Shown here: positions 649 to 37,382 of the stretch, piece after piece
How the letters are laid out: the number at the start of each line of letters is the position of its first letter
How positions within the stretch are numbered: position 1 is the stretch's first letter
Virus record (IMG/VR): IMGVR_UViG_3300035158_000136
Coordinates: 1-60,442 of that record
Reading direction: 5' to 3' (one strand)
Length of the DNA stretch: 60,442 nt
Source of the DNA: a virus
Program-made: the position numbers and the translations under genes
The notes under the pieces: generated by a model
What the model saw: the letters and a program-made list of their open reading frames with translations, nothing else
What the model was told of the DNA's origin: nothing
The model's database searches: none

Positions 649-721
649 GAACATTAGGTGGGCAATCCCAATTGCACCGATCGTATCGTTTTTGAGTTTC
701 GTATCAATTGGAGAAGTTACG

Positions 722-1741
722 ATGAGTAGCACGAAAGTTACGAAGTTGGTGGATTTCTCGGATCTGTACCTTGAAGGGAATGTGCGGACTGAAGCGTGTG
801 AAGCGATTCCGCATATGGTGCAGAGTTTGCGGAGAAACGGGTTCAAGCCGAATCATCCGCTTGTCGTGTCTGAGCGGGATGGCCGATTTCTCGTGTTGTG
901 CGGGAATCGCCGGAAGAAGGGATTGGACTGGTTGGCCGAAAATGACGATTCTGAGTATCGTCGCATTCTCGGCGAGTTCAACGGTAAAATCCCTTGTATC
1001 GTTCACAAGGGTTTGACCGAAGAAGAGGAAATTCTGCTTCGTGTCGATCATTCCACCGATGAGGATCGTGTCGGTCTTGACGAATGGAGTCAGTTTTTAG
1101 CGATTAAACAGCTTGTGCGGGCTTTCACGGCTGAATCGCAGGAACGGATTGCAGAGAAACTCGGGATTTTCCACAACAAAGGGAAAAACAAGGGAAAGCC
1201 GAATCGGTCATATGTGCAGACTCGGGTGGATCTGGCGCGTCTGCCGGTTTTCGTGCAGGAAGAGATTAGGAAGCTCATGCAGGAAGGGAAGGATGCAACG
1301 CCTGTGCGGATTAGTGACATTAAGAAACTCAAGACCGTCTACAATGACGAATATGCCGATTATCCCGACGGCGACGGTCCTGAGTTCAAAAAGGCTTGGG
1401 AGGGTATTGTCAATCCTGAGCCGAAGGCCGAATCTGCCGACGGCGATAAGGTGGAACCTGCCGATCTTTCCGTCAAGTCCGCCTTTGAACGTTCTCAGGC
1501 TTGTAGCAGTCGCCTGCTTGGGCGGGTTCTACTGGCTGTGACGAATCAAGGGAAGGATGATCTGGTTGCGCTGGATGCGCAGGTCTTGCAGGCTGAGACG
1601 GATTCGCAGATCCTTGCCGATATTGCCGAATATCTTGGCGAGAACGATTACGCTCAGCTTGTCGATGCTGCCAGAAATGCGCGTGTTGAGCGTGAGGCGC
1701 AGGATGCCGAGAATGCGGAGACTGCCGATTCCGCCGAGTAG
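722..1741 (+). CDS. ParB/KorB-like DNA-binding protein 1
   Basis: A 339-residue protein with a ParB-type N-terminal domain. It has the VR motif near residue 22, then a spaced segment with two hydrophobic strands ending in LCGNRRKKGL, which corresponds to the G-x-RR-x-x-A CTP-binding box of ParB. A central helical region (about residues 120-190) should carry the HTH, and the acidic tail is rich in Ala, Glu and Asp. The ATG at 722 is chosen because GGAG lies at 710-713; an upstream TTG at 692 is less likely. ParB relatives bind palindromic sites and spread along DNA. The genome carries many copies of one palindrome, so this is a candidate binder (inference). Three further ParB-like genes occur in the window. 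Confidence 0.75.
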   Translation: MSSTKVTKLVDFSDLYLEGNVRTEACEAIPHMVQSLRRNGFKPNHPLVVSERDGRFLVLCGNRRKKGLDWLAENDDSEYRRILGEFNGKIPCIVHKGLTEEEEILLRVDHSTDEDRVGLDEWSQFLAIKQLVRAFTAESQERIAEKLGIFHNKGKNKGKPNRSYVQTRVDLARLPVFVQEEIRKLMQEGKDATPVRISDIKKLKTVYNDEYADYPDGDGPEFKKAWEGIVNPEPKAESADGDKVEPADLSVKSAFERSQACSSRLLGRVLLAVTNQGKDDLVALDAQVLQAETDSQILADIAEYLGENDYAQLVDAARNARVEREAQDAENAETADSAE

Positions 1742-1759: not shown

Positions 1760-1795
1760 AGGCCGGCTAGTCCGATTATCCGGGCTGGCCGGCCT
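1760..1795 (+). terminator. Hairpin after ParB-like gene
   Basis: AGGCCGGC at 1760-1767 pairs with GCCGGCCT at 1788-1795. The T-tract is weak (TATTTCCGTTT), so termination is plausible but imperfect. Confidence 0.45.
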
Positions 1796-1821: not shown

Positions 1822-1850
1822 CTGAGTTCAAAATCTTTCCTAGAATCTTG
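1822..1850. repeat. 29-bp direct repeat, left copy
   Basis: Identical to 2594-2622. It begins CTGAGTTCAAAATCT, a one-mismatch copy of the genome-wide dyad, and ends TAGAATCTTG. The two copies bracket the sulfatase fragment. Confidence 0.95.
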
Positions 1851-1967
1851 GGGCCGGGCTGGTCGGCGGACTGGGATGGCGCCGGGAATGAACGTAGGCC
1901 CCAACGGGCCGTCTTCGAAGCCACTCATGGCAGCGCCCCCCCCCCAAATACAAGGGAATGAACAAGG

Positions 1968-2593
1968 TCAACCCCAGCGCGGCTCCAAAACCGGGTTCTC
2001 CGGCGAAGTCTTCAGGTTTTCCTCCCTGAAAGATCCGGGGTATCCAACCATTTTGTATTGCTGGGTGACGACGGCGCAGTTTTGATAAGGCCTCGGCTGC
2101 AGGCCTCGATGGCATTGCAGGAACAAGGGTCGATCCGGCCAGGCCGTTTCGCCTCCTTCCAGCAACGGGAGAAGGCTAATTCCGTCAACAACGGGATCCT
2201 GCGGCACGCCCACGTCGGCGGCATCCATCAGCGTCGGCAGAATATCGATGTGACTGGCGACGCGATCACAGGTCCGACGCGACGAAAGCCGTCCGCGCCA
2301 TTGCACGAACAGCGGCACGCGGATTTTGGCTTCGTAGATGGTTCCGCTTCGCAGGCCCGCGTTGTATCCGTGTCCCGGACCGTCGTCGCTGGTGAAAACC
2401 ACAAGCGTGTTTTCCCGCAAGCCGAGCTTCTCCAGCCGGCCCAACAGGCGTCCGAAGTTGTCATCGTAGTTGGTCACCATGGCGTAGACATTGGCTTGAG
2501 CATCACTCAGTCCAGCGCTCTGGTACGGCTCCTTGTACCGGTTGGGAGCTAGCGGGCCAACGACGGATTCGCGGGCTGTATGGCCGACGTTGG
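1968..2593 (-). pseudogene. Sulfatase gene fragment
   Basis: The minus strand encodes about 209 residues of a formylglycine-dependent sulfatase. Visible family features are the NYDDNFG segment, VVFTSDDGPGHG, an RVPLFVQWRG block and DILPTLMDAADV, the conserved C-terminal half of the catalytic domain. The N-terminal Cys-x-Pro-x-Arg nucleophile motif is absent and the frame has no start of its own, so it cannot be a working enzyme. The segment is GC-richer than its neighbours, contains a run of C residues at about 1937-1945, and is flanked by 29-bp exact direct repeats. It is either an acquired host piece or an assembly chimera. Confidence 0.85.
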
Positions 2594-2622
2594 CTGAGTT
2601 CAAAATCTTTCCTAGAATCTTG
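2594..2622. repeat. 29-bp direct repeat, right copy
   Basis: Identical to 1822-1850, offset by 772 bp. Removing one copy and the intervening 743 bp restores an uninterrupted phage-like sequence. Confidence 0.95.
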
Positions 2623-2643
2623 CCCGAATCTTGCCCTAGTCCC

Positions 2644-2679
2644 TTGACCTAGCTTTCCCTTGACCTATCCTTTTATAGT
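2644..2679 (+). promoter_or_regulatory. Possible weak promoter
   Basis: Two TTGACC hexamers (2644-2649, 2660-2665) precede TATCCT (2666-2671) and TATAGT (2674-2679). The first TTGACC with TATCCT has a 16-bp spacer. It would serve the small ORF at 2715. The pairing is ambiguous. Confidence 0.3.
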
Positions 2680-4173: not shown

Positions 4174-4376
4174 TGTTCAAGTGGATCAAAGGCGCTCTCA
4201 AAAGCAACACGGTTCAGTTTAATGGTGCCGCGGCGATTCTCTGGTTCCTGGAAGTCCTGGGACAGACCAACTTCATCAGCGACGACAGTCAGTACAGCGC
4301 GCTGTTGGCCGGCATCGTGGCTCTCGTGAACATCGTATTGCGCTTCAAGACCAAGAAGGCGCTGCCCGAACGCTAA
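4173..4376 (+). CDS. Holin-like small membrane protein
   Basis: A 67-residue protein starting MFKWIKGALKSNTVQ, with one amphipathic helix, a hydrophobic stretch (about residues 20-32), a second membrane-like helix (about 43-57, LLAGIVALVNIVL) and a basic tail ending LPER. Size and layout resemble class II holins, which form inner-membrane lesions at lysis. No endolysin is adjacent; the exported peptidase at 7142 is the closest candidate. Translationally coupled to the preceding gene. Confidence 0.5.
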   Translation: MFKWIKGALKSNTVQFNGAAAILWFLEVLGQTNFISDDSQYSALLAGIVALVNIVLRFKTKKALPER

Positions 4377-4394
4377 AGACCGCAGGTTTCTTCC

Positions 4395-4408
4395 TGATTT
4401 TAAGATCA
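4395..4408. promoter_or_regulatory. Dyad copy (one mismatch) before 4422 gene
   Basis: TGATTTTAAGATCA sits in the 45-bp gap between two genes, 14 bp before the next start. One position departs from the dyad consensus. Confidence 0.5.
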
Positions 4409-4421
4409 AGAAAGTGAGACA

Positions 4422-4724
4422 ATGAGCCTGATTCAAGCCGATCGCACGTTGGAACCGCTCGAATTCGAGCAATTCGAGAATGTTACCGGCTCGGTCCAAC
4501 GACTCAACGCTCCGAACAAAGCTACCTATGCCTACATTCAGGCGCAGGGCGGCGATATTCGGTGGCGGGATGATGCCGGTGAAGTGACGGCCACTGTTGG
4601 CCACATTCTCGCAGCGGGCGACGACTTGTGGTTCACGGCCGATCTCAAGAAGTTCACGTTCATTCGTGAAAATGCGGAAACTGCAACAACCGATGTTTCA
4701 GTGAGTTACTATGTACCGCGCTAA
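4422..4724 (+). CDS. RWRDD-family small virion protein 1
   Basis: A 100-residue protein containing IRWRDDAGEVTATVGHIL at about residues 46-63. The same core (RWRDD-G-x-T-x-TVGHI) occurs in the proteins at 5111 and 5377. Such short beta-rich proteins with a W-R-D-D box are common in phage structural operons, where they are likely capsid or tail decoration or fibre-associated subunits. The C-terminus VSVSYYVPR matches the SITYY and VTYYAP endings of its two paralogues. Confidence 0.6.
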   Translation: MSLIQADRTLEPLEFEQFENVTGSVQRLNAPNKATYAYIQAQGGDIRWRDDAGEVTATVGHILAAGDDLWFTADLKKFTFIRENAETATTDVSVSYYVPR

Positions 4725-5095
4725 CCGATGCCGCACTCGATACTTCGATGTGCGTGAACCAAAAGAGCAGCCTGATCCGCTGTTCGCTAATTTGGTTCAT
4801 GAATGGAACATGGAAGAATCGAGCGGCACGCGGTATGACGCCGTAGGCGACCTTGATATGTGGGCCGCCATCCGGTCGGGTTGGTTTCAGTGTCAAGTTT
4901 CCTGACGGCGGTACTTCTTATCTTTATCGAACAACGGCTCTCAATCCGGGTAACAATAATTTCCACATTCTTGGTTGGCTAAAGTGGCACGCGACGACTC
5001 AAAACACCGAAAATGGATTGTGTATGGTCCAGCGAAGTCTCATTACCCAGAAGGTTGGCAATCAACCTGGGACGACGATCACAAACGCTACATAG
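4711..5095 (+). pseudogene. Frameshifted LamG/ConA-like protein remnant
   Basis: Frame 1 (4711-4905) encodes FANLVHEWNMEESSGTRYD, the start of a LamG-type domain, then loses sense. A second frame (4853-5095) resumes with GFSVKFPDGGTSYLYRT and LNPGNNNFHILGWL, the following strands of the same fold. The two frames overlap near 4855-4880, so one indel splits the gene. The C-terminal half of the domain is missing. It lies between two RWRDD-family genes and overlaps the end of the first. Confidence 0.6.
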
Positions 5096-5110
5096 TACCG
5101 GCGGACTGAC

Positions 5111-5380
5111 ATGAGTGTAATGCGAGCCGAACGTCGAATGGTTCAAACGGGTTTCGAGACCGTAACAAACGGTTTTCTGAATCCTCCGACCAACACTGAA
5201 TACGTCATCGTTACCGCTGACATTGGTGGCGACGTCCGTTGGCGTGATGATGGCACCGCTTCAACAGCCACGGTAGGCCACATTATCTATGCGGGTAAGT
5301 CTTTCCGTTATAAGGGCAAGATCAACCGCTTCTACGTCTTCGGCACCGCTGCCGTAACATATTATGCGCCAGACAAATGA
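5111..5380 (+). CDS. RWRDD-family small virion protein 2
   Basis: An 89-residue paralogue of the 4422 protein, with VRWRDDGTASTATVGHII near residues 40-57 and a FRYKGKINRFYV strand after it. It ends in AVTYYAPDK. The stop overlaps the next start (ATGA), so the pair should be translated together. Confidence 0.6.
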   Translation: MSVMRAERRMVQTGFETVTNGFLNPPTNTEYVIVTADIGGDVRWRDDGTASTATVGHIIYAGKSFRYKGKINRFYVFGTAAVTYYAPDK

Positions 5381-5667
5381 CCATCATTGCAGAAGCCAAG
5401 TACCAAGTTCTCGGTTTCGAGCAGCTCGAATTGTCAACCACGCCCAAGAGCCTGGCTGTACCGAACGGCGCTGCTTATGCCAAGATTCGTGCTAACCTGT
5501 TCGACAGTCGTTGGCGCGACGATGGCACCGATCCTACCAATACAGTTGGACATATTCTTTACGAAGGTAAGACTATCACTTACATCGGCGACCTTCGCAA
5601 GATGCGATTTGTAAGCATTCCAGGGACATCGTATGTAAGCATCACTTACTACATCATTATCGGGTAA
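5377..5667 (+). CDS. RWRDD-family small virion protein 3
   Basis: A 96-residue paralogue with SRWRDDGTDPTNTVGHIL at about residues 45-62 and the ending VSITYYIIIG. Together with the genes at 4422 and 5111 it forms a diverged triplicate, each about 90-100 residues, probably alternative subunits of one surface structure. Confidence 0.6.
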   Translation: MTIIAEAKYQVLGFEQLELSTTPKSLAVPNGAAYAKIRANLFDSRWRDDGTDPTNTVGHILYEGKTITYIGDLRKMRFVSIPGTSYVSITYYIIIG

Positions 5668-5671
5668 CGCG

Positions 5672-6523
5672 ATGGCACTCCGCGGTACGCAACAAATCGT
5701 TGAGGCCGTCGCACTTGGTAGTGAGGGCAAACTCAGGGGAACTCGACAGCAAGTCGAGATTCTGACAGCCGAAGGCGCTGTTGAGGGTGAACTCAGAGCG
5801 ACACAGCAAGTTGTCGAGTCGGCAGCAGGCGGAACAGGCCACCTAAGAGCTTCAAGGCAGCAAGTCGAAGTCATCGCAAAAGACCCGCTTGCGGGTGAGC
5901 TTCGAATCACGAGACAAGCAGCGGAGTACCTTTTTGATGCGGCCGGTGGTGATCTTAGAATCACTCGTCAAGTTGTTCAAGTTCTTGCTGGCATTGCAGA
6001 AGAGGGCCAACTAAGACTGAGCAGACAAGGCGTTGAGGTCATCTCCGCGACAACCAATGGCGTCCTTCGAATTTCAAGACAAAGCCTTGAGATTTTAGCA
6101 GAAGCAATAGGAGGTAATCTCAGAGTTTCACGTCAGGCTGTTGAGTACATCCATGAGCCCGTTGCAGGTGAAATAAGAATCACGAGGCAAGGTGTTCAAT
6201 ATCTTTTCAAAGTCACAGGCGGTGAGCTTCGAGTCACAAGACAAGCAATCGAATATCTTCACAAACATCCATCTCTTGGCACTGCACGTATTTCGAGACA
6301 AAGCGTTCAAGTTTTATTTGGTCCTTCAGTTGAAGGCGCTGCTAGAGTTTCAAGACAGGCGGGTGAAGTCCTTTCGGTAGCATTAGAAGGTGACATGCGG
6401 GTCACGAGACAAGCTGTCGAAGTCCTAAGTGATGCCGCACCACCTACACCAGTCGTGCACGTTGGCCAGTTTCGTCGCCAAAAGCGGCGAAGGATGAAAA
6501 TGCTCCCTCGAAGAGGAAGGTAA
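5672..6523 (+). CDS. Protein of 14 tandem LRxTRQxVEVL repeats
   Basis: A 283-residue protein built almost wholly of 14 degenerate repeats of 17-20 residues with core G-x-LR-(I/V)-(T/S)RQ-x-V-(E/Q)-(V/Y)-L. A 25-residue basic tail (GQFRRQKRRRMKML) follows. The first two repeats nearly match the N-terminus of the tail protein at 28433 (MALRGTQQ, KLRGTRQ, VEILT), so the repeat is a phage module. A solenoid or fibre shaft bound to the virion is plausible. Operon position directly behind three small virion proteins supports a structural role. Confidence 0.7.
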   Translation: MALRGTQQIVEAVALGSEGKLRGTRQQVEILTAEGAVEGELRATQQVVESAAGGTGHLRASRQQVEVIAKDPLAGELRITRQAAEYLFDAAGGDLRITRQVVQVLAGIAEEGQLRLSRQGVEVISATTNGVLRISRQSLEILAEAIGGNLRVSRQAVEYIHEPVAGEIRITRQGVQYLFKVTGGELRVTRQAIEYLHKHPSLGTARISRQSVQVLFGPSVEGAARVSRQAGEVLSVALEGDMRVTRQAVEVLSDAAPPTPVVHVGQFRRQKRRRMKMLPRRGR

Positions 6524-6524
6524 C

Positions 6525-7145
6525 ATGCGATCTATTTTTCTCGCGATGCTGCTACTTGTGGCCTTTCCGGCGTATGCAGCAGACGCACCGACCCCAGCCG
6601 TTGCTGATATCGTGTTGGAAGCCCCTGAAACGGGCTCAATTGGTGAACTGATCAGGCTAGACGCGACCAAAAGCAAGTCTGAGGAGTTAGTTTGGGACAT
6701 CGATCCTGAGACATCAGACTTTGAGGCCGTCGGCAAGCGTGCTTTTCTGTCTTCTCGAACGCCTGGACGCTACCTTGTTCTGATCGCGGGCGTTGCGAAT
6801 GGCAAACCGGTACTCAAGAAGCACGAGGTTGTCATCGAAGGTGCTACGCCGACCGGTCTTGATTCTAAAATCAAATCCTGGCTTGGTCAGGTCCGGTCAG
6901 AAAATGGTAAACAGGAGGCCCTCCAGTTAGCAAGCACCTTTCGAGCCCTTGCAAATGCCGAAATTGCACCAGACAAGATGCTCGAAGCCACCGCAAGGGC
7001 GACCAATCAGACGCTTGGTGACTCGCTTGAGGCGTGGAAACCGTTTTTAGACAGCCTTGGTGCATATTTAGATGCTGCTGAGATCACGGATTACCCAGCC
7101 ACGTATCGAGCAATCGCCGATGCCATCGAGAAGGCAATAAAATGA
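6525..7145 (+). CDS. Exported PKD-like protein
   Basis: A 206-residue protein with a clear Sec signal peptide (MRSIFLAMLLLVAFPAYA, cleavage before AD). Residues 25-105 look like a PKD/Ig-type beta sandwich (GELIRLDAT...LVWDIDP...PGRYLVLIAG). The remainder is helical. It starts an exported-protein cassette (6525-8961) inside the structural operon. A one-mismatch dyad lies within it at 6860-6873. Role unknown; a periplasmic or cell-surface function during late infection is likely. Confidence 0.6.
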   Translation: MRSIFLAMLLLVAFPAYAADAPTPAVADIVLEAPETGSIGELIRLDATKSKSEELVWDIDPETSDFEAVGKRAFLSSRTPGRYLVLIAGVANGKPVLKKHEVVIEGATPTGLDSKIKSWLGQVRSENGKQEALQLASTFRALANAEIAPDKMLEATARATNQTLGDSLEAWKPFLDSLGAYLDAAEITDYPATYRAIADAIEKAIK

Positions 7146-8140
7146 ACCGTCGAGGCTTCTTAGGGCTGCTATCGGCCTTAGCTTTTGCTACCCCGGCAAG
7201 GGCTGAGGAAGAGAATAAGTTCTTTGGGGCACTCAAACCGGCTTTCAAGTCGAGGCGCATCCCTTTTAGACGAGCATTTGGACATTTCAAAGGAATTAGC
7301 AAAGGTCAAAAGGCATTTCTCTGGAAATATCTCGAAATTATCCTTGGAGCACCACTCAAACCTCACAAACAAGGTGGAGAGGGCGATTGCGTTGGACATG
7401 CAGCTAGTTTGGGCGTCGATATCCTGGCCGCTTGTGACTTGTTCATGCGTTTTGAGCCCGAAACATGGAAGGCTAAATCCAGCGTCGAGATGATCTACAC
7501 TGGAAGCCGAAATGAAATCGGCGGAGGCGACCTTGAGGGACGAGCAGGCAGCCACGGCGAGTGGGCCGTCAAGTTTTTGAGTCAATACGGCACTCTGCAC
7601 CGTCAAATCTACGCTTCTGGTGACAATTATCTCGATTTACGTGGTTACGATGTCGTTCGCTCATACAAGATGCGGGATTTGGGCGTACCTGACTGGCTGG
7701 AGCCGAAAGCTAAGCAACATCCGGTCAAGACTTACTCCAAAATCCTGACCGTACGAGACGCTTTCGATTCAGTCTTTGTTGGGCAGCCAGTGATTTTATG
7801 CTCAACATACGCTTTCCATGATACTCGGGATAAGGACGGATTTTGCAAGCCTTATCTGAGCACATGGAACGGAAATCGTTGGCGTGGTCGCTGGTTCCGT
7901 AAACAGTGGTGGCACGCTCTGTTGCTGGCAGGGTTCAAAGACGACAGCCGCCCAGGCGGATTGATTTTGAACTCACATGGAGCGTGGAACGACGGCCCAA
8001 CAACTTACGGTCAACCGCCAGGATCGTTTTGGGTCGATGCCGAATACCTTGAATTGATGTTGAAGGATTGGGAAGACTGCTATGCGATGTCGGCATATGT
8101 AGGCCATCCTCAACGCATGCTCTCGCACAAACTCTATTGA
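7142..8140 (+). CDS. Tat-exported papain-like cysteine peptidase
   Basis: A 332-residue protein starting MNRRGFLGLLSALAF with a twin-arginine (RRGFL) signal and an ARA cleavage site. The body shows a papain-fold triad arrangement: GDCVGHAAS near residue 82 (Cys nucleophile), WWHALLLAGF near 258 (His) and LILNSHGAWNDGP near 275 (Asn), followed by GSFWVDAEYLELML. It could degrade host envelope peptides or act as a lysis enzyme. Its Tat signal means folding before export, unusual for a phage enzyme. Overlaps the previous gene by 4 bp. An exact dyad lies inside at 7962-7975. Confidence 0.65.
   Translation: MNRRGFLGLLSALAFATPARAEEENKFFGALKPAFKSRRIPFRRAFGHFKGISKGQKAFLWKYLEIILGAPLKPHKQGGEGDCVGHAASLGVDILAACDLFMRFEPETWKAKSSVEMIYTGSRNEIGGGDLEGRAGSHGEWAVKFLSQYGTLHRQIYASGDNYLDLRGYDVVRSYKMRDLGVPDWLEPKAKQHPVKTYSKILTVRDAFDSVFVGQPVILCSTYAFHDTRDKDGFCKPYLSTWNGNRWRGRWFRKQWWHALLLAGFKDDSRPGGLILNSHGAWNDGPTTYGQPPGSFWVDAEYLELMLKDWEDCYAMSAYVGHPQRMLSHKLY
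7962..7975. promoter_or_regulatory. Genome-wide dyad, exact copy
   Basis: TGATTTTGAACTCA lies inside the coding region of the Tat peptidase, so the site is kept despite coding constraint. Confidence 0.7.
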
Positions 8141-8152
8141 AGGAGCTATGAT

Positions 8153-8581
8153 GTGGCTAAGATTTTGGCTTGCATTGCGATCTGCTTGGCTTGCCTTCAA
8201 GGAGGGCAATATCTCCAAGTTGAAGAGCAAAATACGCTTTTGCGTGAACTTTCTGGACAGAAAGTTGTGCCGCCGGAAGGACTCGAAGAATACGCAGAAC
8301 TCTGGGAAAAGAACACCATCGTCGGATTCGCCGCGGACTGGTGTATTTGGTGCCCGGCGCAGAAGGTTAATTGGTCGGCGCTCAAGAGGAAGGGATACCG
8401 ACTGAAAGTCTATGATGTAGACAAACACCCAGATCTGTACGCCTACTTCCGCGACAACGGAGTCACAGAAGGAATACCCTACACTGCGACATTCGTTGAG
8501 GGTGAAATCAAACACCGATTCAAAGGTGTGATCAACTGGCGTCGGATCGCAAAGAAAGCGGAGGATTGTAAGAAAGAATGA
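8153..8581 (+). CDS. Exported thioredoxin-like protein
   Basis: A 142-residue protein beginning at GTG 8153 (AAGGAG at 8140-8145) with a hydrophobic signal-like N-terminus ending near AIC/LAC. A thioredoxin fold follows, with NTIVGFAADWCIWCPAQK carrying the C-x-x-C redox pair (about residues 62-65). Then come VYDVDKHPDL and GIPYTATF with the cis-Pro. It would act outside the cytoplasm as a disulfide oxidant or reductant, perhaps for the neighbouring Cys peptidase or tail proteins. The ATG at 8148 is in another frame. Confidence 0.7.
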   Translation: MAKILACIAICLACLQGGQYLQVEEQNTLLRELSGQKVVPPEGLEEYAELWEKNTIVGFAADWCIWCPAQKVNWSALKRKGYRLKVYDVDKHPDLYAYFRDNGVTEGIPYTATFVEGEIKHRFKGVINWRRIAKKAEDCKKE

Positions 8582-8961
8582 AACGACGCACATTCATCAC
8601 GACCATCATGGCTTGCGGCCTTGCGGCTACACCGGCTGCGGCCGCTGTTTACCGTGGACCTTTCTATAGATTGCGATTTCGAAAAGCTCTCAAGCGAGTC
8701 ATTCGCGAGAAGCGAGCCGAAGCTCGGAGAAAGCGGAAAGAGGGCGAGATCACGGCTGCCCAGTACGACACGCTTGTCGCTGGTTTCGACAAGAAGGTTG
8801 CGTACAACGGTCGAGTTGCGACGGTCGCCGATCACGTCATGGACGAGTTGGACGTAGAGCTTTCCTGGTGGGAGAGCATCTACAACTGGATCATCGAAAA
8901 CTGGGACGAGATTCTTGCCTTGTTATTGAAACTCGTTCCTCTACTCCTCCTATTGCTTTGA
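8578..8961 (+). CDS. Exported or membrane protein with C-terminal anchor
   Basis: A 127-residue protein whose N-terminus MKRRTFITTIMACGLAATPAAA looks like a signal peptide with a Tat-like KRRTF box. A basic helical centre (FRKALKRVIREKRAEARRKRK) follows, and the C-terminus is a hydrophobic helix of about 15 residues (ILALLLKLVPLLLLLL). The stop of the thioredoxin-like gene overlaps its start. It could be a holin partner or spanin-like lysis protein, but this is inference. Confidence 0.5.
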   Translation: MKRRTFITTIMACGLAATPAAAAVYRGPFYRLRFRKALKRVIREKRAEARRKRKEGEITAAQYDTLVAGFDKKVAYNGRVATVADHVMDELDVELSWWESIYNWIIENWDEILALLLKLVPLLLLLL

Positions 8962-8968
8962 GGGTATC

Positions 8969-9238
8969 ATGGCACGAAAGCGAAAGTTTGAGTTCGAAGC
9001 ATTTGAGGGCCTTTGTGATGTCTATGTCGAGGGCAATAAGGTCTTCGATTGCCACAATGCTCGGCACGGACAAATTTACCTTCACCTTGGCCAAGACTAT
9101 CCTGCCGAGCAGGTGACGATTGAGCCGCACGATCCGCGAGTCCCCATCCAGACGGACATTGTTGATGGTGAACCAGTACCGAAGGAGGAAGAGAAACCGA
9201 AGCGTCCGCCGACGCTTTCGGAATTACGACAGGGGTAA
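8969..9238 (+). CDS. Hypothetical protein upstream of terminase
   Basis: An 89-residue protein with a beta-rich N-terminal half (FEFEAFEGLCDVYVEGNKVFDC) and a charged Pro/Glu tail ending PPTLSELRQG. GAGGG precedes the start. No family recognised. It sits 12 bp before TerL in the packaging gene block. Confidence 0.5.
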   Translation: MARKRKFEFEAFEGLCDVYVEGNKVFDCHNARHGQIYLHLGQDYPAEQVTIEPHDPRVPIQTDIVDGEPVPKEEEKPKRPPTLSELRQG

Positions 9239-9250
9239 GGAGGCGTTATC

Positions 9251-10888
9251 ATGCACGCTCTGGAGCAGGTATTTGCAGAAGTCTTCGCATCGGGTCTAAA
9301 ACGAAAAAGTGTGAAAACGTGCTCGCGATGGGCACAATCATACCGCGTACGTAAGGGACAACCATTCGGATTCGACCTGCATCCCTGGTCCAGAGCGATG
9401 CATGATTCGTCCGCGCCATTCAATGTCGGCATGAAGGCCGCACAGATGGCGTATACTGAGACTATGCTCAATCGTTCATTCTTCAAGATGGACATTGAGC
9501 AAGCCTCGGTACTTTATGTTTTTCCGAATCAAACACCAGACGCCTCAAACTTCAGTGCTGATCGATTTGATGCCGCATTAGACGAAAGTGAACATCTGCG
9601 TCGGATGTTCTCAGACGTTAAGAACGTCGGACACAAACGAGCAGGAGCAGCAAGTCTTTGGATCAGAGGATCGAGAAGCCGTAGCGGTTTGAAAGGTATC
9701 GATCCTGGCTTCGTCGTACTTGACGAAGTTGATGAAATGGATCAGGAGAAGATCCAGCTTGCTTTTAGACGTACAGATGGTCAGTTAGTCTCACAGATTT
9801 GGTGCATTTCGACACCAATTATCCCGGAGACGGGTGTTCACCAGATGTACCTGCAAACGACGCAGGAATCATGGTACTTCACTTGTCCGGTTTGTTGGAA
9901 AGATATTACACTGACTTATCCCGAATGCTTCGTGCTCATCGGGGAGAGTTTGCTTGATCCTAGAATCAAAGAGTCGCATATATGCTGCCCTCTTTGCAAG
10001 AAAAAGATCGAGCATGAGGATAAAATCAAAAGCCAGGTTGAGACAGGTCACTGGATTCCAAAGTTCGAAGGGCTGGAGAGGCGTGGATTCTATATCAATC
10101 AGCTTTCAAGCTGTGTGAAGACACCCGACAAGTTTGCAGCCACGGTGATTGAGGCTGAGACAAATCCGTCGGCTGAGCAGGAACTTTGGAATTCACTGGT
10201 CGGAATGCCGCATGTGGTGGCAGGAGCCCAGATTGAGGATCATCATTTTGACGATTGCTATGTCAAACGTCGGATGGATGATAAGCCACCCAACTACAAA
10301 ATCACAACGATGGGTTGCGACGTCGGAAAATGGCTACATTATGAGGTAACTGGCTGGCGTATTCCCAAGATGGGACCAGACCTCAATATGTTGGCTGAAG
10401 GCGAAATCATCAAGGTCGGAAAGGTTCAAAGATTTGAAGAACTTGCAATAATCATGCGAGAATATCAAGTCTTCTTTGCGGTCTTAGACAAGCAACCAGA
10501 AGAACGAGCCGTTTACGAATTTTGTTGTCGATTCTGGGGCCGAGTAAAACGTTGCCATTACGCTCGGGGAATCGGCAGTAAGAAGATGGTTGTAGCCGGT
10601 GCGGATGATGAACATCTCATCAGTGTTAATCGGACATTTTGGCTTGATACGAGCCTCGGTCGCGTCCGTTCAAAGCGATTGAAATTGCCGATTGATCTGC
10701 CAGGAGAGTATCGAACACACCTGAAAAATCTCGTGAAGAAATATGAAGAAGATGCGAGTGGCGATGACGTGTCGAAGTATATAAAGCGTGGTCCAGACCA
10801 CTACGCACATGCGAGAAACTATAGCGAGATGGCTCTACCACTGGCCGCGACTGTTGCAACAAACCAGAATATTCGGAGTTTCCTGTAA
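9251..10888 (+). CDS. terL: Large terminase subunit (GpA-like)
   Basis: A 545-residue packaging ATPase-nuclease. A lambda GpA-type layout is visible: the PFNVGMKAAQMAYTE segment (Walker A-like, Lys about residue 62) and the Walker B FVVLDEVDEM at about 154-163. A coupling motif (CISTP near 177) follows, and a Cys-rich insert CPVC...CPLC at about 204-252. The C-terminal nuclease domain begins near TTMGCDVGKWLHYEV with an acidic residue. It cuts and translocates genome DNA into proheads through the portal. The ATG at 9251 has AAGGAGG upstream. The stop overlaps the portal start as TAATG. Confidence 0.9.
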   Translation: MHALEQVFAEVFASGLKRKSVKTCSRWAQSYRVRKGQPFGFDLHPWSRAMHDSSAPFNVGMKAAQMAYTETMLNRSFFKMDIEQASVLYVFPNQTPDASNFSADRFDAALDESEHLRRMFSDVKNVGHKRAGAASLWIRGSRSRSGLKGIDPGFVVLDEVDEMDQEKIQLAFRRTDGQLVSQIWCISTPIIPETGVHQMYLQTTQESWYFTCPVCWKDITLTYPECFVLIGESLLDPRIKESHICCPLCKKKIEHEDKIKSQVETGHWIPKFEGLERRGFYINQLSSCVKTPDKFAATVIEAETNPSAEQELWNSLVGMPHVVAGAQIEDHHFDDCYVKRRMDDKPPNYKITTMGCDVGKWLHYEVTGWRIPKMGPDLNMLAEGEIIKVGKVQRFEELAIIMREYQVFFAVLDKQPEERAVYEFCCRFWGRVKRCHYARGIGSKKMVVAGADDEHLISVNRTFWLDTSLGRVRSKRLKLPIDLPGEYRTHLKNLVKKYEEDASGDDVSKYIKRGPDHYAHARNYSEMALPLAATVATNQNIRSFL

Positions 10889-12702
10889 TGGCCGACAAGA
10901 AAAAGTTCAGCATCCAGAATTCCGTTCACCCAGAGTATTTGGAACGCTCTGCGGAATGGGATAAATTCCGGTACGTGATGAAGGGCGGCGAAGACTTCAT
11001 CGAGCAGTATGTGGAGCAATTCTGCGATGCCGAAGGGACTCCTGATTTTAACCGCAGAAAACGGATCACGCCCATCGGCGGTTTTGCCAAAGCGGCGGTC
11101 ATGGATGTGAAAAACTCGATTTTTCAACGTATGGGTGCGATCAAACGCACGGGTGGGACAGAAAGCTGGCACAGAGCAACGAACCAAGGCAAGCTCGGCG
11201 GTGTCGATCTTGAAGGATCGACAATGAACCACTTCATCGGCACCAAGGTCTTGCCCGAGCTTCTAGCGATGGGTAAGGTTGGCGTTTACGTCGATAATCA
11301 TCGTATCAACGAGAAACGTACACTACGAGACAAGCAGGAGCAACATCCGTATCTGTATACGTTTGTTGCGGAAGACATCCGAAACTGGGAGTATTTCCTC
11401 AGAGGGTCTGAACTTCGGCTCGCGCAAGTTTTGCTCCGGGTAAGAAGCGAAATCAAAGAGACATACTACGGTATGTACGCCGATTACGCTGAACAGTACC
11501 GGCACTACTACATTGACAGCGAAGGCATTGTTTGGTGCCAGACGTACAACGCCGAAGGGTCGCAAACGGACATTTATGGCGATCCGAGCAATCCTGAGCC
11601 GGTTGAGCTTGAACTCAATGAGATCCCATTCGTTATTCTTGAGCTACAGTCGTCACTCCTACAGGACATTGCGAATCATCAAATTGCCATAACGAACATG
11701 GAATCGGCCGACGTGGCATATGCGCTGCGATCGAACGTTCCGTTCTACACGGAGCAATTTGACCAGAAGTTTGAAGCTGCTCAGAATATGAGCAACGAAG
11801 ATTATTACAATGTCCACGAGTATGACGAGGACAATTCGGACCAGGAGCAACGACCCGACAATCCGAAGACCATCAAGGTTGGTTCGACGGATGGTCGGCG
11901 TTACCCGATTGGTGTTGATCGTCCTGGCTTCATCCACCCGTCATCTGAACCACTTCAGATTTCGATGGAGAAGCAGAAAGCCCTCAAGGATGATATCCGT
12001 ACACTCGTTAACTTGGCTGTTGCGAACACGCGATCACGATTCGCGTCAGCCGAATCAAAACAAATGGATGAACGTGGTTTGGAATCGGGCCTCTCGGCCA
12101 TTGGTTTGGTGCTTGAGCATGGCGAAAGACGTGTTGGTGAGTTATGGTCTGATTATGAGGATTCGAGGAAACCATTGACTGTGCGGTATCCTGAGCGCTA
12201 TTCTCTTCGTTCAGACGAGGATAGGCGGAAAGATGCTGAACAACTTTCTAATAGCTCTTCCGATGTTGCTTCTCCTACATTCAGGAAGGCCATTCAAAAA
12301 GAAATCGCCAGCATCCTGCTTGGAGGAAAGGTCTCTGACGAGGAGTTTGACAAAATTATTGCCGAAATCAACGATTCACGATATCCTACCGCCGATCCGG
12401 AGCAAATCCGATCGGACGCGGAAATCGGACTCGTCTCAAGAGAAACGGCGTCCCTAGCTCGTAATTGGCCCAAAGGTGAAGCCGAGAAGGCCAAGAAGGA
12501 GAAAGAGGATGCTGAACTCATGAGAATGAAAGCACAGAGTAAGGGTTTCGGTGAGACCGATAATCCTGGTGCTCGCGGTTTGGAGGTTGACTCAGAGGGG
12601 GCAAAACTAGAAAAGCAACAATCACAAGACCCTGAGAATGATCCCGACGGCAAGCGGCGGGTGAGGGGTCGTGACAAGAGGAGACGAAAGAATGGCGGCT
12701 AA
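10888..12702 (+). CDS. Portal protein (DUF4055-like)
   Basis: A 604-residue protein beginning with the HPEYLERSAEWDKFR segment typical of DUF4055 portal-type proteins. A long alpha/beta body and a helical stem region follow, with a charged, Lys/Glu-rich C-terminal tail from about residue 530. It forms the dodecameric vertex through which TerL pumps DNA. Its place directly after TerL and before decoration, scaffold and coat genes is the normal order. A one-mismatch dyad lies inside at 11604-11617. Confidence 0.85.
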   Translation: MADKKKFSIQNSVHPEYLERSAEWDKFRYVMKGGEDFIEQYVEQFCDAEGTPDFNRRKRITPIGGFAKAAVMDVKNSIFQRMGAIKRTGGTESWHRATNQGKLGGVDLEGSTMNHFIGTKVLPELLAMGKVGVYVDNHRINEKRTLRDKQEQHPYLYTFVAEDIRNWEYFLRGSELRLAQVLLRVRSEIKETYYGMYADYAEQYRHYYIDSEGIVWCQTYNAEGSQTDIYGDPSNPEPVELELNEIPFVILELQSSLLQDIANHQIAITNMESADVAYALRSNVPFYTEQFDQKFEAAQNMSNEDYYNVHEYDEDNSDQEQRPDNPKTIKVGSTDGRRYPIGVDRPGFIHPSSEPLQISMEKQKALKDDIRTLVNLAVANTRSRFASAESKQMDERGLESGLSAIGLVLEHGERRVGELWSDYEDSRKPLTVRYPERYSLRSDEDRRKDAEQLSNSSSDVASPTFRKAIQKEIASILLGGKVSDEEFDKIIAEINDSRYPTADPEQIRSDAEIGLVSRETASLARNWPKGEAEKAKKEKEDAELMRMKAQSKGFGETDNPGARGLEVDSEGAKLEKQQSQDPENDPDGKRRVRGRDKRRRKNGG

Positions 12703-12925
12703 CTACCCGACGAGTGTTTGGGACGGTACTTCTGACAGCCGACCCAATGCTGATGTGTACCGTGCTCCCGACGCGGCCGACTATGCTCAGCTGCGTGCGG
12801 AAGTGGAGGCGATTCAAACGCAATTGGTTCCCTTGGGGATTCCCGCGAATGGCGTGCTTCCGACGTCCAACCCGGGCGCTGGCAAGCTCTGGAACAACAC
12901 CAACGTCGTCAATGTGGGTACCTAG
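12692..12925 (+). CDS. Small virion protein, WDGTS family A
   Basis: A 77-residue protein starting MAANYPTSVWDGTSD. The ATG at 12692 is preferred because GAGGAG lies just upstream, and it overlaps the portal end by 11 bp. Its N-terminal 45 residues (VWDG-S-x-RP...R-PDA-DY...E) match the N-terminus of the next gene, so the two share an adaptor domain. The C-terminus (NPGAGKLWNNTNVVNVGT) is Gly/Asn-rich. Confidence 0.6.
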   Translation: MAANYPTSVWDGTSDSRPNADVYRAPDAADYAQLRAEVEAIQTQLVPLGIPANGVLPTSNPGAGKLWNNTNVVNVGT

Positions 12926-12934
12926 GTTTGAAAC

Positions 12935-13429
12935 ATGTCTATCAATACGATTTGGGATGGGTCGAGTGAAACACGCCCCGATCCCAGTGTATTACGAGAA
13001 CCAGACGCATATGACTACCGCCGAATTGTTCGTGAACTGCAAGAGACACAAGAAACCGTAATCGAAGCGATAGAGCTTGCATACGCAATTGCGGCGGTAG
13101 ACATTGCTTCTGGCAATCTCATTACAGTGAATGGGAGCGGTGAGGTTGTTCTCGCTGATTTTAGAATCAGCGGCGTGGTATCAGGGATGGCCATACAGGA
13201 CGTAAAGATTGGCGATGGAGTGCCTTTCATACGGACTGGCCGCGTACATCGCGAGGATTGGACGTCAATCATTGGTAATCCGAAACTTGAAGCAGGATCG
13301 GAATACTTTTTGGATTACGATGGTTTCATGACAACAATGCCGCCAACCACTGGCTACGTTGTCAAGGTAGGACAGGCTATAACGCCTGAATTGTTCAGTT
13401 TGTTGATTTTCAACTCAGTGAGGTTATAA
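12935..13429 (+). CDS. Virion protein with WDGTS N-terminus and decoration-like domain
   Basis: A 164-residue protein. Residues 1-45 are paralogous to the preceding protein (TIWDGSSETRPDPSV, PDAYDY). Residues 55-164 form a beta-rich module with a hydrophobic ending (VVKVGQAITPELFSLLI), similar in plan to the C-terminal part of the next gene (FVVRVGHALSTTEFEI). A capsid decoration or fibre role is likely. A one-mismatch dyad lies at 13156-13169. Confidence 0.55.
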   Translation: MSINTIWDGSSETRPDPSVLREPDAYDYRRIVRELQETQETVIEAIELAYAIAAVDIASGNLITVNGSGEVVLADFRISGVVSGMAIQDVKIGDGVPFIRTGRVHREDWTSIIGNPKLEAGSEYFLDYDGFMTTMPPTTGYVVKVGQAITPELFSLLIFNSVRL

Positions 13430-13899
13430 TGGCAACAAAGAAACCACTAGTCCTGACGAATGGCCAGATCGAGCAGTTGCAAGATGGCGACCAGATCGAT
13501 CTTCGTAATACCGTTCCAAGGACTAACGACGATGGTGCTAACCCGATTCCGATTTGTACTCCTGTCTATGCGGTCTCTGCAACCAATGTTGACAAAGCCC
13601 AAGCGGACGCGCAGGGTACGATTCGTGTCAAGGGGCTTGCTGCGGAAACCATTGCGGCCGCAGGATCGGGTGAGATTATGGTTGATGGTATCCTTGAAGC
13701 GACGACGGGCGAATGGGATACGGTCACAGGTGAAACCGGCGGACTTACGCCAGGAGCAAACTATTTCCTCGATGCAGCCTCCGCTGGAGAATTGACTCAG
13801 ACCGCGCCGAGCGGTGCCGGCGAATTCGTCGTGCGCGTGGGTCACGCTCTCTCCACGACTGAGTTTGAAATCGAGATGCAACAGCCGATCAAGCTGTGA
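13429..13899 (+). CDS. Decoration-like virion protein
   Basis: A 156-residue protein with the pattern GLTPGANYFLDAASAGELTQ and FVVRVGHALSTTEFEIEM. This layout is found in phage head decoration and fibre proteins (an acquired value block followed by a transmitted strand). It shares the C-terminal layout of the preceding protein and begins on that gene's stop (TAATG). Confidence 0.55.
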   Translation: MATKKPLVLTNGQIEQLQDGDQIDLRNTVPRTNDDGANPIPICTPVYAVSATNVDKAQADAQGTIRVKGLAAETIAAAGSGEIMVDGILEATTGEWDTVTGETGGLTPGANYFLDAASAGELTQTAPSGAGEFVVRVGHALSTTEFEIEMQQPIKL

Positions 13900-14318
13900 G
13901 TGGTCTTGAACCGCTTGCGATTGTTGCCGGCCAAATCGAAAATGTTGGAAAACGACGCACTCAAATTAGTAAAATCAACATTGGACCACGAGAAACAATC
14001 AACGTTTCAGGTGCTGTTGCTGTACCAGACGTCATAAACACTTCTTCATGGGTTCGCATTCGCGGTACTGACGCTACGCGTACGACAATTCAGACGATTC
14101 TTGGTGGTGAAGACGGTGATCTTTTGTTCGTGAATGGACGGAACATTCGCATGATGGGCGGTGGAAATCTCCGCTTACAAGGTGCGTTTAACATGGATGG
14201 TTCGATGATGATTGTTTTCATCTACCACGGGTCGAACAATTACTGGTTTGAGTATAGCCGCAAACAGATAGCTAACGAGGTAAGTCATGGCTTACTACGG
14301 AACTCTAGTCGCCGCTGA
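13896..14318 (+). CDS. Hypothetical structural protein
   Basis: A 140-residue beta-rich protein starting at GTG 13896 and overlapping the previous stop. It has a LLFVNGRNIRMMGGGNLRL segment and an aromatic C-terminal part (YHGSNNYWFEYSRKQ). The strand-turn pattern suggests a jelly-roll or fibre fragment. The end overlaps the next gene by 32 bp, so the functional C-terminus may be shorter. No family is named. Confidence 0.45.
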   Translation: MSGLEPLAIVAGQIENVGKRRTQISKINIGPRETINVSGAVAVPDVINTSSWVRIRGTDATRTTIQTILGGEDGDLLFVNGRNIRMMGGGNLRLQGAFNMDGSMMIVFIYHGSNNYWFEYSRKQIANEVSHGLLRNSSRR

Positions 14319-14748
14319 TCTTTACTTCAATGAGCGTCTGCACATCTTTGCATGGGAAGACGCGACTGAAGATCAACGTGAACGTGCTTTGGCTGAGGCT
14401 TCTCGTCGAATTGATCGGCTGAAGTTCCGTGGTGAAAAGGCCGATTCGACTCAGGAATTGGAATGGCCACGTGCCAATGCGATCGGTTTCGAAGATGACG
14501 AAATTCCCGAAGCTGTGAAGATTGCGACCTACGAATCTGCATACGCATTGCTGGACGGTGTAGATCCAGACCAAGAGTACGAGAACCTGGCTGCAGTGGC
14601 CGAAGGTTACAGTAGTGCGCGGACAACCTACTCTCGCACCACTGTCCCCGAGCATTTTGTTGCCGGAATTCCGAGCGCACTTGCTTGGCGGTATTTGAAA
14701 CCGCTTCTTGGCAACACGAGGGGAATCCGATTAAGTAGGGTATCTTAA
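14287..14748 (+). CDS. Head-tail connector-like protein (DnaT_2-type)
   Basis: A 153-residue protein with the WEDATEDQRERALAEASRRI start, RLKFRGEKADSTQELEWPR and an IPEAVKIATYESAYALL helix. This is the pattern of short phage proteins annotated as DnaT-like ssDNA-binding or head-tail connector. Position between portal and scaffold supports a connector role. It begins inside the preceding frame (14287) with GAGGTAAGTC upstream. Confidence 0.6.
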   Translation: MAYYGTLVAADLYFNERLHIFAWEDATEDQRERALAEASRRIDRLKFRGEKADSTQELEWPRANAIGFEDDEIPEAVKIATYESAYALLDGVDPDQEYENLAAVAEGYSSARTTYSRTTVPEHFVAGIPSALAWRYLKPLLGNTRGIRLSRVS

Positions 14749-14758
14749 GGATACAGCT

Positions 14759-15625
14759 ATGCACTTTGATCTTATGCTCAATCGGGCACGTTTTGTTGGT
14801 TTCGATGGTGACGGTGGTGACGGCGGAGCCGGTGGTGGTGACGGCGGAGCCGGCGGTAGCGGTGGTGGCGATGGCGGTGGAGGCGACGGTGGTGCCGGTG
14901 GTGGCAGTGGCAAGACATACACGCAAGAAGAATTTGATTCTCATATGGCCGGTCTTCGCCGGAAGTATGAGGAGCAAGGCAGGCAAACTCAGCGTGAACT
15001 GGCTACCCAACTGGCCGAGGCGAGAAAGAATTCGTCGCTCTCCGAGGAAGAACGGACAACTCTGACCAAGCGAATCGAGGAATTAGAGAATCAATACCTC
15101 ACGGACAAGGAAAAGTCCGATCGAGCAGCGAAAGCAAAGCAGGAGGAATACGACAGTACGGTACAGAACCTCACAACCGAGCGAGATCGCTGGCGTCGTG
15201 ACTTTGAGCACGAGACCGTGAGGAACCTGATTGTCGCTTCTGCTGCGAAGAACAAAGCATGTGATGCGAGTCAAATTGCAGCGATCGTTGGACCGATGAT
15301 TGAGTTCAAAGATGTTGTGGATGATGCTGGACAAAACACTGGCCAAGTCGCTCCCATAGTCAAGTTCCCCGACGTTGACACGGAGAGCGAGAAGCCCATT
15401 ACCATGGAATACTCCGTCGAAGAGGCGGTGAAGCGGATGACCGAACTTCCGCAATACTTCAACCTGTTTGAAGACACCATGAAGTCTGGGCTCGGTGGTC
15501 AGGGTAGTTCAGGAACTCCGAAGGGCAAAATCGACGTGCGAAAGCTCGCTTCGGAAAATCCAGCCGAATATCGGCGGCTGCGTAGAGAGAAACCGGAGCT
15601 TCTCTACGGCAGTATGGAGCGATAG
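14759..15625 (+). CDS. Capsid scaffolding protein
   Basis: A 288-residue protein with a Gly/Asp low-complexity stretch (about residues 15-50), a long charged coiled coil (about 55-145) and a C-terminal basic region. This is typical of scaffolds that guide coat assembly and then leave or are cleaved. It lies just before the coat gene. Its N-terminus NRARFVGFDGD resembles the coat N-terminus GKARFVGYDNS, which suggests a shared signal. An exact dyad follows at 15638. Confidence 0.75.
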   Translation: MHFDLMLNRARFVGFDGDGGDGGAGGGDGGAGGSGGGDGGGGDGGAGGGSGKTYTQEEFDSHMAGLRRKYEEQGRQTQRELATQLAEARKNSSLSEEERTTLTKRIEELENQYLTDKEKSDRAAKAKQEEYDSTVQNLTTERDRWRRDFEHETVRNLIVASAAKNKACDASQIAAIVGPMIEFKDVVDDAGQNTGQVAPIVKFPDVDTESEKPITMEYSVEEAVKRMTELPQYFNLFEDTMKSGLGGQGSSGTPKGKIDVRKLASENPAEYRRLRREKPELLYGSMER

Positions 15626-15637
15626 TCCGGGATCGTT

Positions 15638-15651
15638 TGATTTCAAAATCA
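15638..15651. promoter_or_regulatory. Genome-wide dyad, exact copy before coat gene
   Basis: TGATTTCAAAATCA lies in the 57-bp gap between scaffold stop and coat start, 32 bp before the coat ATG. It may modulate late transcription here. Confidence 0.75.
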
Positions 15652-15682
15652 AGTTTGTCCCGTGAAAACAGTGAGGACTGCA

Positions 15683-17101
15683 ATGTACGTTCTTGGAAAA
15701 GCACGCTTTGTCGGTTACGACAACAGCCTTGATGCTTGGGTGCCTGAGGTTTGGGCACAGGAAACGTTGGCCATTCTCGAAGAGAACATGGTCATCGGCA
15801 ATCTCGTTCACCGTGATTTCTCTGATGAAGTCAGCGAATTCGGTGATGTTGTTAACACGCGACGTCCGAATGAGTACGTTGCGAAGCGTAAGGGTGCGAA
15901 TGACGACGTAACGGTTCAGGCGTCTTCGGCGACAAACGTCGCGGTCGAGCTGAATCAGCACGTCCACACGTCGTTCACGATCAAGGATAGCGAGCAGAGC
16001 CTCAGCTTCCAGGATCTGATCCGTGTGCACCTGAACCCCGCCGCGTTGTCGATCGCTCGAAAGATCGACCGCATTCTCATGAACCAGGTCTACCAGTACC
16101 TGGGGAACGCCGTTGGCGACCTGGAAGGTCTGAATGTTACGAATGTCAAGCGCACGATGCTTGAACTCGGCCAGAAGATGGACGAGAACAAGGCATGGGT
16201 GGACGGCCGTAACTTGATCGTCGCTCCCGCGACGAAGACCGACATCTTGGAGCTGGATCTGTTCAACGCTGCCGACAAGATTGGCGACGACGGGACGGCT
16301 CTGCGCCGGGCCAGCCTCGGTGAATTGCTCGGCTTCAACGTTGTGATGGCTCAGAACACGCCCAGCTTGCTGGCGGCCTCCTTGGAGACGCTTCAGGCTG
16401 ACGAGCTGTCCGCGGACGCGGCCGCTGGTGCTACCGTGATTTCGGTGGACAGTGGTGCTGGCTTCGCGGTCGGTGAGTACATCACGCTTGAAGGCGATCT
16501 CATGCCTTACCGGATCACTGGTATCGCTACCAATGATCTTACCCTCAACCGTCCGCTGCGTGTTGCCGTTCCGGCTTCGGCTTCCGACATCCAACAGACC
16601 TCGACGGGTACTGTGGACTTGGCTGGCCACGCTGGTGTGTCGGCTTACCCGGCTGGCTACGACAAGGAAATCCAGGTCGATGGCACTGGCGTTCCTTACG
16701 AAGGTCAGTTGGTGAGCTTCAACACCGCCGGTACGCCCAACGTCGCGCTGTCGGGTGAGTACGGTATCGTCGATGTGACGAGCCTCGGTGGTGGTAAGTA
16801 CCACATCGAATTGGATCGTCCGCTCGAAACGGCGATTGCCGATGGTGACGTTGTGGGTTACGGTCACGCCGGCTCTTACAACTTCGCCATGCACCGTAAC
16901 GCTCTGGCGATGGTAATGCGACCGCTCGCTCCTCCGCGTCGGGGTGCTGGTGCCATCAGTGGTACGGCCACCTTCAACGGTTTGGCCATGCGTACCACGA
17001 TCAGCTACGAAGGTCGTGGCCAGGGTCACCTGGTGACGATGGACGTGCTGTTCGGCTCCAAGGTGCTCGACACGAACTTGGGTGCTTGCATGCTTGGCTG
17101 A
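15683..17101 (+). CDS. Major capsid protein (P22 coat-like)
   Basis: A 472-residue protein with the P22 gp5-type start (WAQETLAILEENMVIGNLVHRDFSDE...GDVVNTRRP), a core with LIRVHLNPAALSIARKIDR and a central insertion (about residues 245-385) of Ig-like character (ADAAAGATVISVDSGAGFAVG). A conserved C-terminal strand (GLAMRTTISYEG) closes it. ATG 15683 with GTGAGGA upstream is preferred over GTG 15662. Its GC content and codon bias differ mildly from neighbours, as expected for a highly expressed gene. A terminator follows. Confidence 0.85.
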   Translation: MYVLGKARFVGYDNSLDAWVPEVWAQETLAILEENMVIGNLVHRDFSDEVSEFGDVVNTRRPNEYVAKRKGANDDVTVQASSATNVAVELNQHVHTSFTIKDSEQSLSFQDLIRVHLNPAALSIARKIDRILMNQVYQYLGNAVGDLEGLNVTNVKRTMLELGQKMDENKAWVDGRNLIVAPATKTDILELDLFNAADKIGDDGTALRRASLGELLGFNVVMAQNTPSLLAASLETLQADELSADAAAGATVISVDSGAGFAVGEYITLEGDLMPYRITGIATNDLTLNRPLRVAVPASASDIQQTSTGTVDLAGHAGVSAYPAGYDKEIQVDGTGVPYEGQLVSFNTAGTPNVALSGEYGIVDVTSLGGGKYHIELDRPLETAIADGDVVGYGHAGSYNFAMHRNALAMVMRPLAPPRRGAGAISGTATFNGLAMRTTISYEGRGQGHLVTMDVLFGSKVLDTNLGACMLG

Positions 17102-17116
17102 TCTTGTCTGAGGCCG

Positions 17117-17153
17117 CTCCCGCCCGTTTAGGCGGGCGGGAGTTGGCTTTTTT
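17117..17153 (+). terminator. Terminator after coat gene
   Basis: CTCCCGCCCG (17117-17126) pairs over 10 bp with CGGGCGGGAG (17133-17142), then TTGGCTTTTTT. It would reduce transcription into the neck genes and favour coat abundance. Confidence 0.85.
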
Positions 17154-17169
17154 CTCGAAGGAGCCTAGC

Positions 17170-17406
17170 ATGAGTAACACCGAAGCTGACATTGCTGTTA
17201 TCAAGAACGAAGTCAAAAACATGCACGAGAAGCTGGATGCAGCGCTCGAAGCTGTTTACGGTTCTGATAGCAAGCCTGGTCTCGTGATTGACGTCGATCG
17301 TTTGAAGCAGAGTGATGCTCGGCGGACGTGGTTGATTCGTACCTTGGTTGCTGCGATGGCTGCTCTCGGTCTGCAAGGCTTAGCCGCACGATTCGGATGG
17401 TTCTGA
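17170..17406 (+). CDS. Small single-TM protein (XhlA/holin-like)
   Basis: A 78-residue protein. The first 50 residues form a charged coiled-coil helix (IKNEVKNMHEKLDAALEAV). The C-terminus has a membrane helix (LIRTLVAAMAALGLQGLAA) and a short FGWF end. AAGGAG precedes ATG 17170. Coiled coil plus C-terminal helix resembles XhlA-type lysis accessory proteins. It lies between coat and neck genes, so a structural role cannot be ruled out. Confidence 0.5.
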   Translation: MSNTEADIAVIKNEVKNMHEKLDAALEAVYGSDSKPGLVIDVDRLKQSDARRTWLIRTLVAAMAALGLQGLAARFGWF

Positions 17407-17407
17407 A

Positions 17408-18399: not shown

Positions 18400-18400
18400 C

Positions 18401-19534: not shown

Positions 19535-19543
19535 GTTTGATCT

Positions 19544-19581
19544 CAGAGCAGCCCGCATCGGGCGGGCTGCTCTGGGTTTTT
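19544..19581 (+). terminator. Terminator after tail tube gene
   Basis: A 13-bp perfect stem (19544-19556 with 19562-19574) has a 5-nt loop and is followed by GGTTTTT. Its left edge abuts a one-mismatch dyad TGAGTTTGATCTCA at 19532-19545, so a binding protein and the hairpin could compete. Confidence 0.9.
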
Positions 19582-19603
19582 ATCCTTAGTCAGGAGCTAT
19601 AAG

Positions 19604-20741: not shown

Positions 20742-20742
20742 C

Positions 20743-37323: not shown

Positions 37324-37336
37324 GAACATTAAGGAT

Positions 37337-37350
37337 TGAGTTTGAACTCA
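37337..37350. promoter_or_regulatory. Operator cluster, exact palindrome
   Basis: TGAGTTTGAACTCA is a perfect palindrome in the leader between P2 and the primase-helicase start. Confidence 0.75.
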
Positions 37351-37368
37351 GAGGCGAAGATGGGAAAT

Positions 37369-37382
37369 TGAGTTTGAACTCA
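37369..37382. promoter_or_regulatory. Operator cluster, exact palindrome
   Basis: An identical perfect palindrome lies 32 bp from the previous centre and about 50 bp downstream of the P2 -10, a position suited to blocking elongation. Confidence 0.75.

Follow-up and report, generated by a model that had tools for sequence, protein, structure and literature searches.

A sulfatase-bearing insert between exact 29-bp repeats in a tailed-phage record is probably a chimeric join of two cellular gene fragments

A sulfatase-like segment framed by direct repeats in a virus record raises the question of whether a phage captured cellular DNA or whether unrelated sequences were joined during library preparation or assembly. 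The original prediction had left both possibilities standing, as either capture by recombination at a dyad (palindrome) of the phage or an assembly join. We examined this locus in the whole IMG/VR virus record, which has 60,442 bases and was read at full length (hereafter the window). The window contains a tailed-phage gene set (terminase, portal, tape measure, primase, polymerase, and helicases), and another IMG/VR contig (L003) matches positions 4286-20884 at 99.76%, although it begins at 4286 and thus short of the insert. The near identity of this second contig indicates that the phage is real and has been assembled at least twice. Across the 16.6 kb of shared backbone, the window and this independent contig differ by one single-base indel (at 14265) and by three short deletions in L003 (13, 11, and 10 bases, at 4385-4397 and 4802-4841). 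The indel at 14265 shifts the stop of the 13896-14318 open frame, as judged by eye, and a LamG-like open frame at 4711-5095 (EESSGTRYDAVGDLD; also assigned by eye) is seemingly split by a frameshift in the window and L003 alike.

The exact repeats framing the segment are present in the record as described. At full extent, the exact match spans 29 bp, with a left copy at 1822-1850 and a right copy at 2594-2622 (both on the plus strand), a spacing of 772 bp and 29 of 29 positions identical. Its sequence, CTGAGTTCAAAATCTTTCCTAGAATCTTG, occurs exactly twice in the window and nowhere else in it, and by a simple estimate assuming independent, identically distributed bases the chance expectation for such a pair in 60 kb is about 1e-8. 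Longer exact repeats are confined, within the window, to a 36-nt hairpin family. When searched in IMG/VR, the 29-bp repeat was not found in any other contig. Its position is intergenic, between a terminator-like hairpin (1760-1795, plus strand), which ends a phage gene with a weak ParB-like match (692-1741, plus strand; phrog_620, E=9e-6), and a promoter-like site in the right flank (2644-2671, plus strand). A tandem pair of GAATCTTGCCC (2615-2636, plus strand) lies across the right-hand edge of the repeat and represents the native context of the right copy. Because the right repeat runs on into this tandem GAATCTTGCCC, as native sequence would, it is likely that the true phage has a single repeat copy, i.e., an empty site. 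The original statement that removal of one unit would give back smooth phage sequence is plausible.

Both flanks come from the same phage: they have similar GC contents (0.50 on the left and 0.51 on the right), carry the phage palindromes on either side, and share a 36-nt exact repeat that is found at 347-382 in the left flank and again at 37661-37696. This hairpin-like repeat (CGACGTAAGTCCTTTGATAGCAACAACTTACGACGA) recurs several times in two non-coding regions that lie far apart (274-434 and 37602-37697). Rightward of the insert, the first larger phage gene (3595-4173, plus strand) has a relative (28%) on another virus contig, where the gene order is conserved; from its position and a Cys/His motif it is a possible small terminase subunit, and no family match was obtained for it.

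Between the repeats lies an insert of 743 bases (1851-2593), so that the repeat unit comprises 772 bp. It is GC-rich, as originally described, with GC contents of 0.67 in its first part and 0.59 in its second. The insert consists of the interiors of two unrelated genes joined tail to tail in opposite orientations, neither of which retains a native end. The claim that it is a sulfatase piece lacking the active-site motif therefore holds for 1986 to about 2552 and fails for 1851-1985, which derives from an isocitrate dehydrogenase (IDH) gene.

The sulfatase part (1986-2552, minus strand), which was delimited by Pfam and by alignment with homologues, is a gene interior without start, catalytic N-terminus, or C-terminus. 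It matches the Pfam family Sulfatase (PF00884) with E=1.4e-19 over profile positions 178-301 of 301, SGSH_C is also matched, and it is 47-51% identical to sulfatases of Planctomycetota. This significant family match, together with a repeat that starts at a palindrome, might be taken to suggest that site-specific recombination at the palindrome supplied the phage with a functional accessory sulfatase, either as a moron or as an auxiliary metabolic gene. However, the catalytic CxPxR/SxPxR formylglycine motif is absent, as the PVCAPTRASLMTGR segment of the homologues lies before the fragment start, and the C-terminal third of homologous sulfatases is missing as well. Several near-invariant residues are also altered (YEAK for YEGG, QWRG for WPG, and DDG for DNG). 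The open frame has 211 aa versus 567-772 aa in relatives and has no native start or end, its first residues falling inside the phage repeat. In addition, the fragment is fused to an out-of-frame IDH piece, and the insert contains no integrase-like gene. We rejected a functional sulfatase on account of the missing gene parts and consider its probability practically negligible. Between the sulfatase homology and the right repeat there is a gap of 41 bp (2553-2593, minus strand), which is possibly more sulfatase, judging from ANVGHTA aligned against TNAPHTP.

The IDH part (1851-1985, plus strand) had been missed by the earlier reading and was found by IDH sequence queries and again when the whole insert served as a DNA query. 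DNA identity and alignment identify it as an IDH gene interior, with 71-75% DNA identity to three intact planctomycete IDH genes over 131-140 bases. It reads across three frames (NLGAGLVGGLG, MAPGMNVGPNG, RAVFEATHGSAP, and KYKGMNKVNPSA); all elements of the PF00180 core motif LVGGLG-APG-N-G...FEATHGSAPKYKG-NKVNP are present and spread over these frames, and there is no continuous open frame, owing to indels of -1, -1, and +5 bases plus in-frame stops. Alignment to 10 intact IDH genes places one missing base at GGG-ATGG, one before GGCCGTC, and five extra bases inside a run of ten C (1936-1945, plus strand), which is five bases longer than in the intact genes; no other C/G run in the record reaches 8 bases. 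The indels are clustered and of homopolymer type, two being located beside G runs and one within the C10 run, all of them within 135 bp. A C-tail or adapter origin of the C10 run was ruled out, since one IDH gene continues on either side of it. The IDH homology may extend into the last four bases of the left repeat (CTTG, 1847-1850), as far as the alignment suggests.

These features led us to regard the insert as probably a chimeric library or assembly join, a view derived from the sequence. Two gene interiors in opposite orientations without native ends favor this reading, and the presence of the same phage on either side of the insert was also counted for it. The distribution of homologues points in the same direction. 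In a DNA search of 23 genomes of one class with the whole insert, the IDH part was detected in four genomes and the sulfatase part in two others; IDH genes were matched by the first 130 bases and sulfatase genes by the later part, on separate contigs (gene identities were taken from the separate IDH and sulfatase comparisons). As the two matches occur in different genomes and were never adjacent in any of the 23 genomes searched, a chimera is favored. The quality of the insert is also informative: the 135 bp of IDH contain three indels, versus one single-base indel in the 16.6 kb backbone, which favors a chimera, and their occurrence beside a sulfatase part that stays open for about 190 codons is not what uniform decay would leave. 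Similarly, identical repeats (29/29) around a degraded insert do not fit a long, slow decay after capture.

Such a chimera would not have formed in the phage itself but while the library was prepared or amplified or the reads were assembled. Two chromosomal scraps of Planctomycetota type, about 135 bp of IDH and about 570-610 bp of sulfatase, would have been joined in opposite orientations and would have ended up between two phage ends having 29 bp in common. The 29-bp "duplication" would then be the overlap of these two phage ends, the sequence being single-copy and intergenic in the true phage. A possible route is that contig ends overlapped by a graph word, or that phage fragments ended at nearly the same place. 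Because short-read assemblers need real reads across both junctions and the IDH and the repeat overlap by only about 4 bases (CTTG), the join would require either a physical chimeric molecule or an erroneous gap fill. This requirement counts against a chimera, as do the presence of two phage breakpoints at a distance of 29 bp, which calls for an explanation, and the possibility that the insert was captured when already degraded. Overall, the simplest account of the facts is low-coverage or chimeric sequence introduced while the library was prepared or amplified or a gap was filled. False joins between viral and non-viral sequence have been documented in de novo assemblies (PMC7417191). The present case resembles those chimeric contigs in that non-viral sequence has become attached to a viral contig in a way that makes no biological sense, whereas it differs from them in that the insert is flanked by two copies of a viral 29-mer and in that the join is deduced from the assembled record instead of being traced to reads.

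The main biological alternative is real capture, in which an intergenic break in a replicating phage genome would have been repaired by end joining or template switching: two cellular scraps would have been copied before the repair returned 29 bp upstream of its departure point, so that 29 bp became duplicated. Phages are known to acquire host DNA by illegitimate recombination, as in mycobacteriophage Giles, and repair by end joining or template switching leaves filler DNA, i.e., a mosaic of unrelated fragments with microhomology and a flanking duplication. The insert is similar to the former in that DNA of cellular genes lies at an intergenic spot of a phage genome, although in this case only internal portions of two broken, indel-bearing genes are present, flanked by a duplication of 29 bp. 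It resembles the latter in being a mosaic whose left junction shows about 4 bp of microhomology (CTTG) and in having a direct duplication that might be the trace of staggered-break filling or template switching; both scraps are apparently from the same phylum, and the intergenic site, with a terminator on one side and a promoter-like site on the other, would tolerate an insertion. However, such a repair pathway is hypothetical for this phage and its host, and the quality of the insert points to an artefact, in that perfect repeats enclose an IDH part whose 135 bp are disrupted by three frame-breaking indels. The IMG/VR searches also revealed no relative with the insert: no relative spanning the insert site was obtained with any of three queries (the gene upstream of the insert, that at 3595, and the sulfatase), and a phage record collection queried with the insert and its flanks gave no matches. 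Moreover, with the terminase as query, weak hits were obtained in only 7 of 392 planctomycete genomes, and these were relatives at 24-30%, which counts against capture from a planctomycete host. No matching case was found in the literature on phage host-gene capture with flanking repeats. Overall, real capture appears unlikely. A transposon-type insertion does not fit the locus: the duplication is 29 bp, no inverted repeats are listed at the insert ends, and neither an element gene nor a transposase is found among the open frames. With regard to site-specific integration, direct repeats are present, and no recombinase hit was obtained among the subset of phage proteins scanned.

The association between the repeats and the phage dyad, on which the original prediction of capture was built, is genuine as an observation: the first 14 bases of the repeat are an imperfect copy of a genome-wide palindrome (1823-1836, plus strand, in the left repeat, equivalent to 2595-2608 in the right). 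The pattern TGA(G/T)-N6-(A/C)TCA (TGAKN6MTCA) occurs 88 times in the window versus 3.6 expected, and a matrix search detected approximately 140 sites of the palindrome TTGA(G/T)TTYRAA(C/A)TCAA both within and between genes (e.g., at 37332-37355, 37364-37387, and 52296-52319). Among random 29-mers of the window, 3.7% hold one whole site and 1.4% begin at a site edge. With so many sites, the overlap is unremarkable and near chance; the coincidence is suggestive at most, and recombination at the dyad, which gains little from these figures, was discarded as the cause. Of the two alternatives offered at the outset, it is the assembly join that is favored, by the mosaic, the clustered indels, and the perfect repeats. 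The palindrome is also present in L003, and relatives with 37-40% identical terminases have 0-2 copies (marginal at most). Two relatives each have their own over-represented gapped palindrome (AACAT-N7-ATGTT, 4 versus 0.006 expected, in L006; CCGG-N8-CCGG, 7 versus 0.08 expected, in L010), and these differing palindromes may be lineage-specific binding sites. Three ParB-like proteins are encoded in the phage (692-1741, 37892-38893, and 43382-44371), and together with the palindrome they look more interesting than the insert itself.

A further possibility is that the 29-bp repeat is a virion terminus, either a filled-in cohesive end or a very short terminal repeat. Natural reads would then never cross the junction from genome end to genome start, and the assembler could have connected the two ends only through a rare chimera that bridged them by way of cellular DNA scraps. 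This scenario would also yield an artefact, and we kept it apart for its biological claim. The repeat follows a gene terminator and precedes the possible small terminase gene by about 1 kb, a usual place for a packaging site, and iterated repeats adjoin it. Filling in of 5' overhangs puts the cohesive sequence at both ends (PMC5557969), and the present repeat is comparable to such 5'-cos ends in that one short sequence would stand at both genome ends. However, the authors of PhageTerm cite 19 nt (P2) for the longest cohesive ends and 131 bp (T3) for the shortest direct terminal repeats (PMC5557969), so that 29 bp exceeds the former and falls short of the latter, and the comparison with those ends is made here from sequence alone. 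Furthermore, L003 does not end at the repeat, and the related contig G393 has neither the 29-bp repeat nor the palindrome ahead of its homologue of the 3595-4173 gene, where long stretches of CACCCACC/GGTGGGTG repeats occupy the non-coding sequence instead (L044:1-900). The terminus route thus seems improbable, and it is quite improbable that the repeat is a fixed virion end of intermediate length (longer than 19 nt and shorter than 131 bp), with the scraps marking joined genome ends; if true, a 29-bp terminus would be a new length.

Taken together, the insert is most likely a laboratory or assembly artefact that is not used by the phage and, if the chimera holds, is probably not a real feature of the phage. 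If capture were true instead, the locus would be a snapshot of random pickup of host DNA, in which the flanking duplication shows the repair route. If the artefact is true, the record would be unfit as evidence for a phage sulfatase or for host-gene capture, and "sulfatase on a viral contig" is the kind of call that enters lists of auxiliary metabolic genes.
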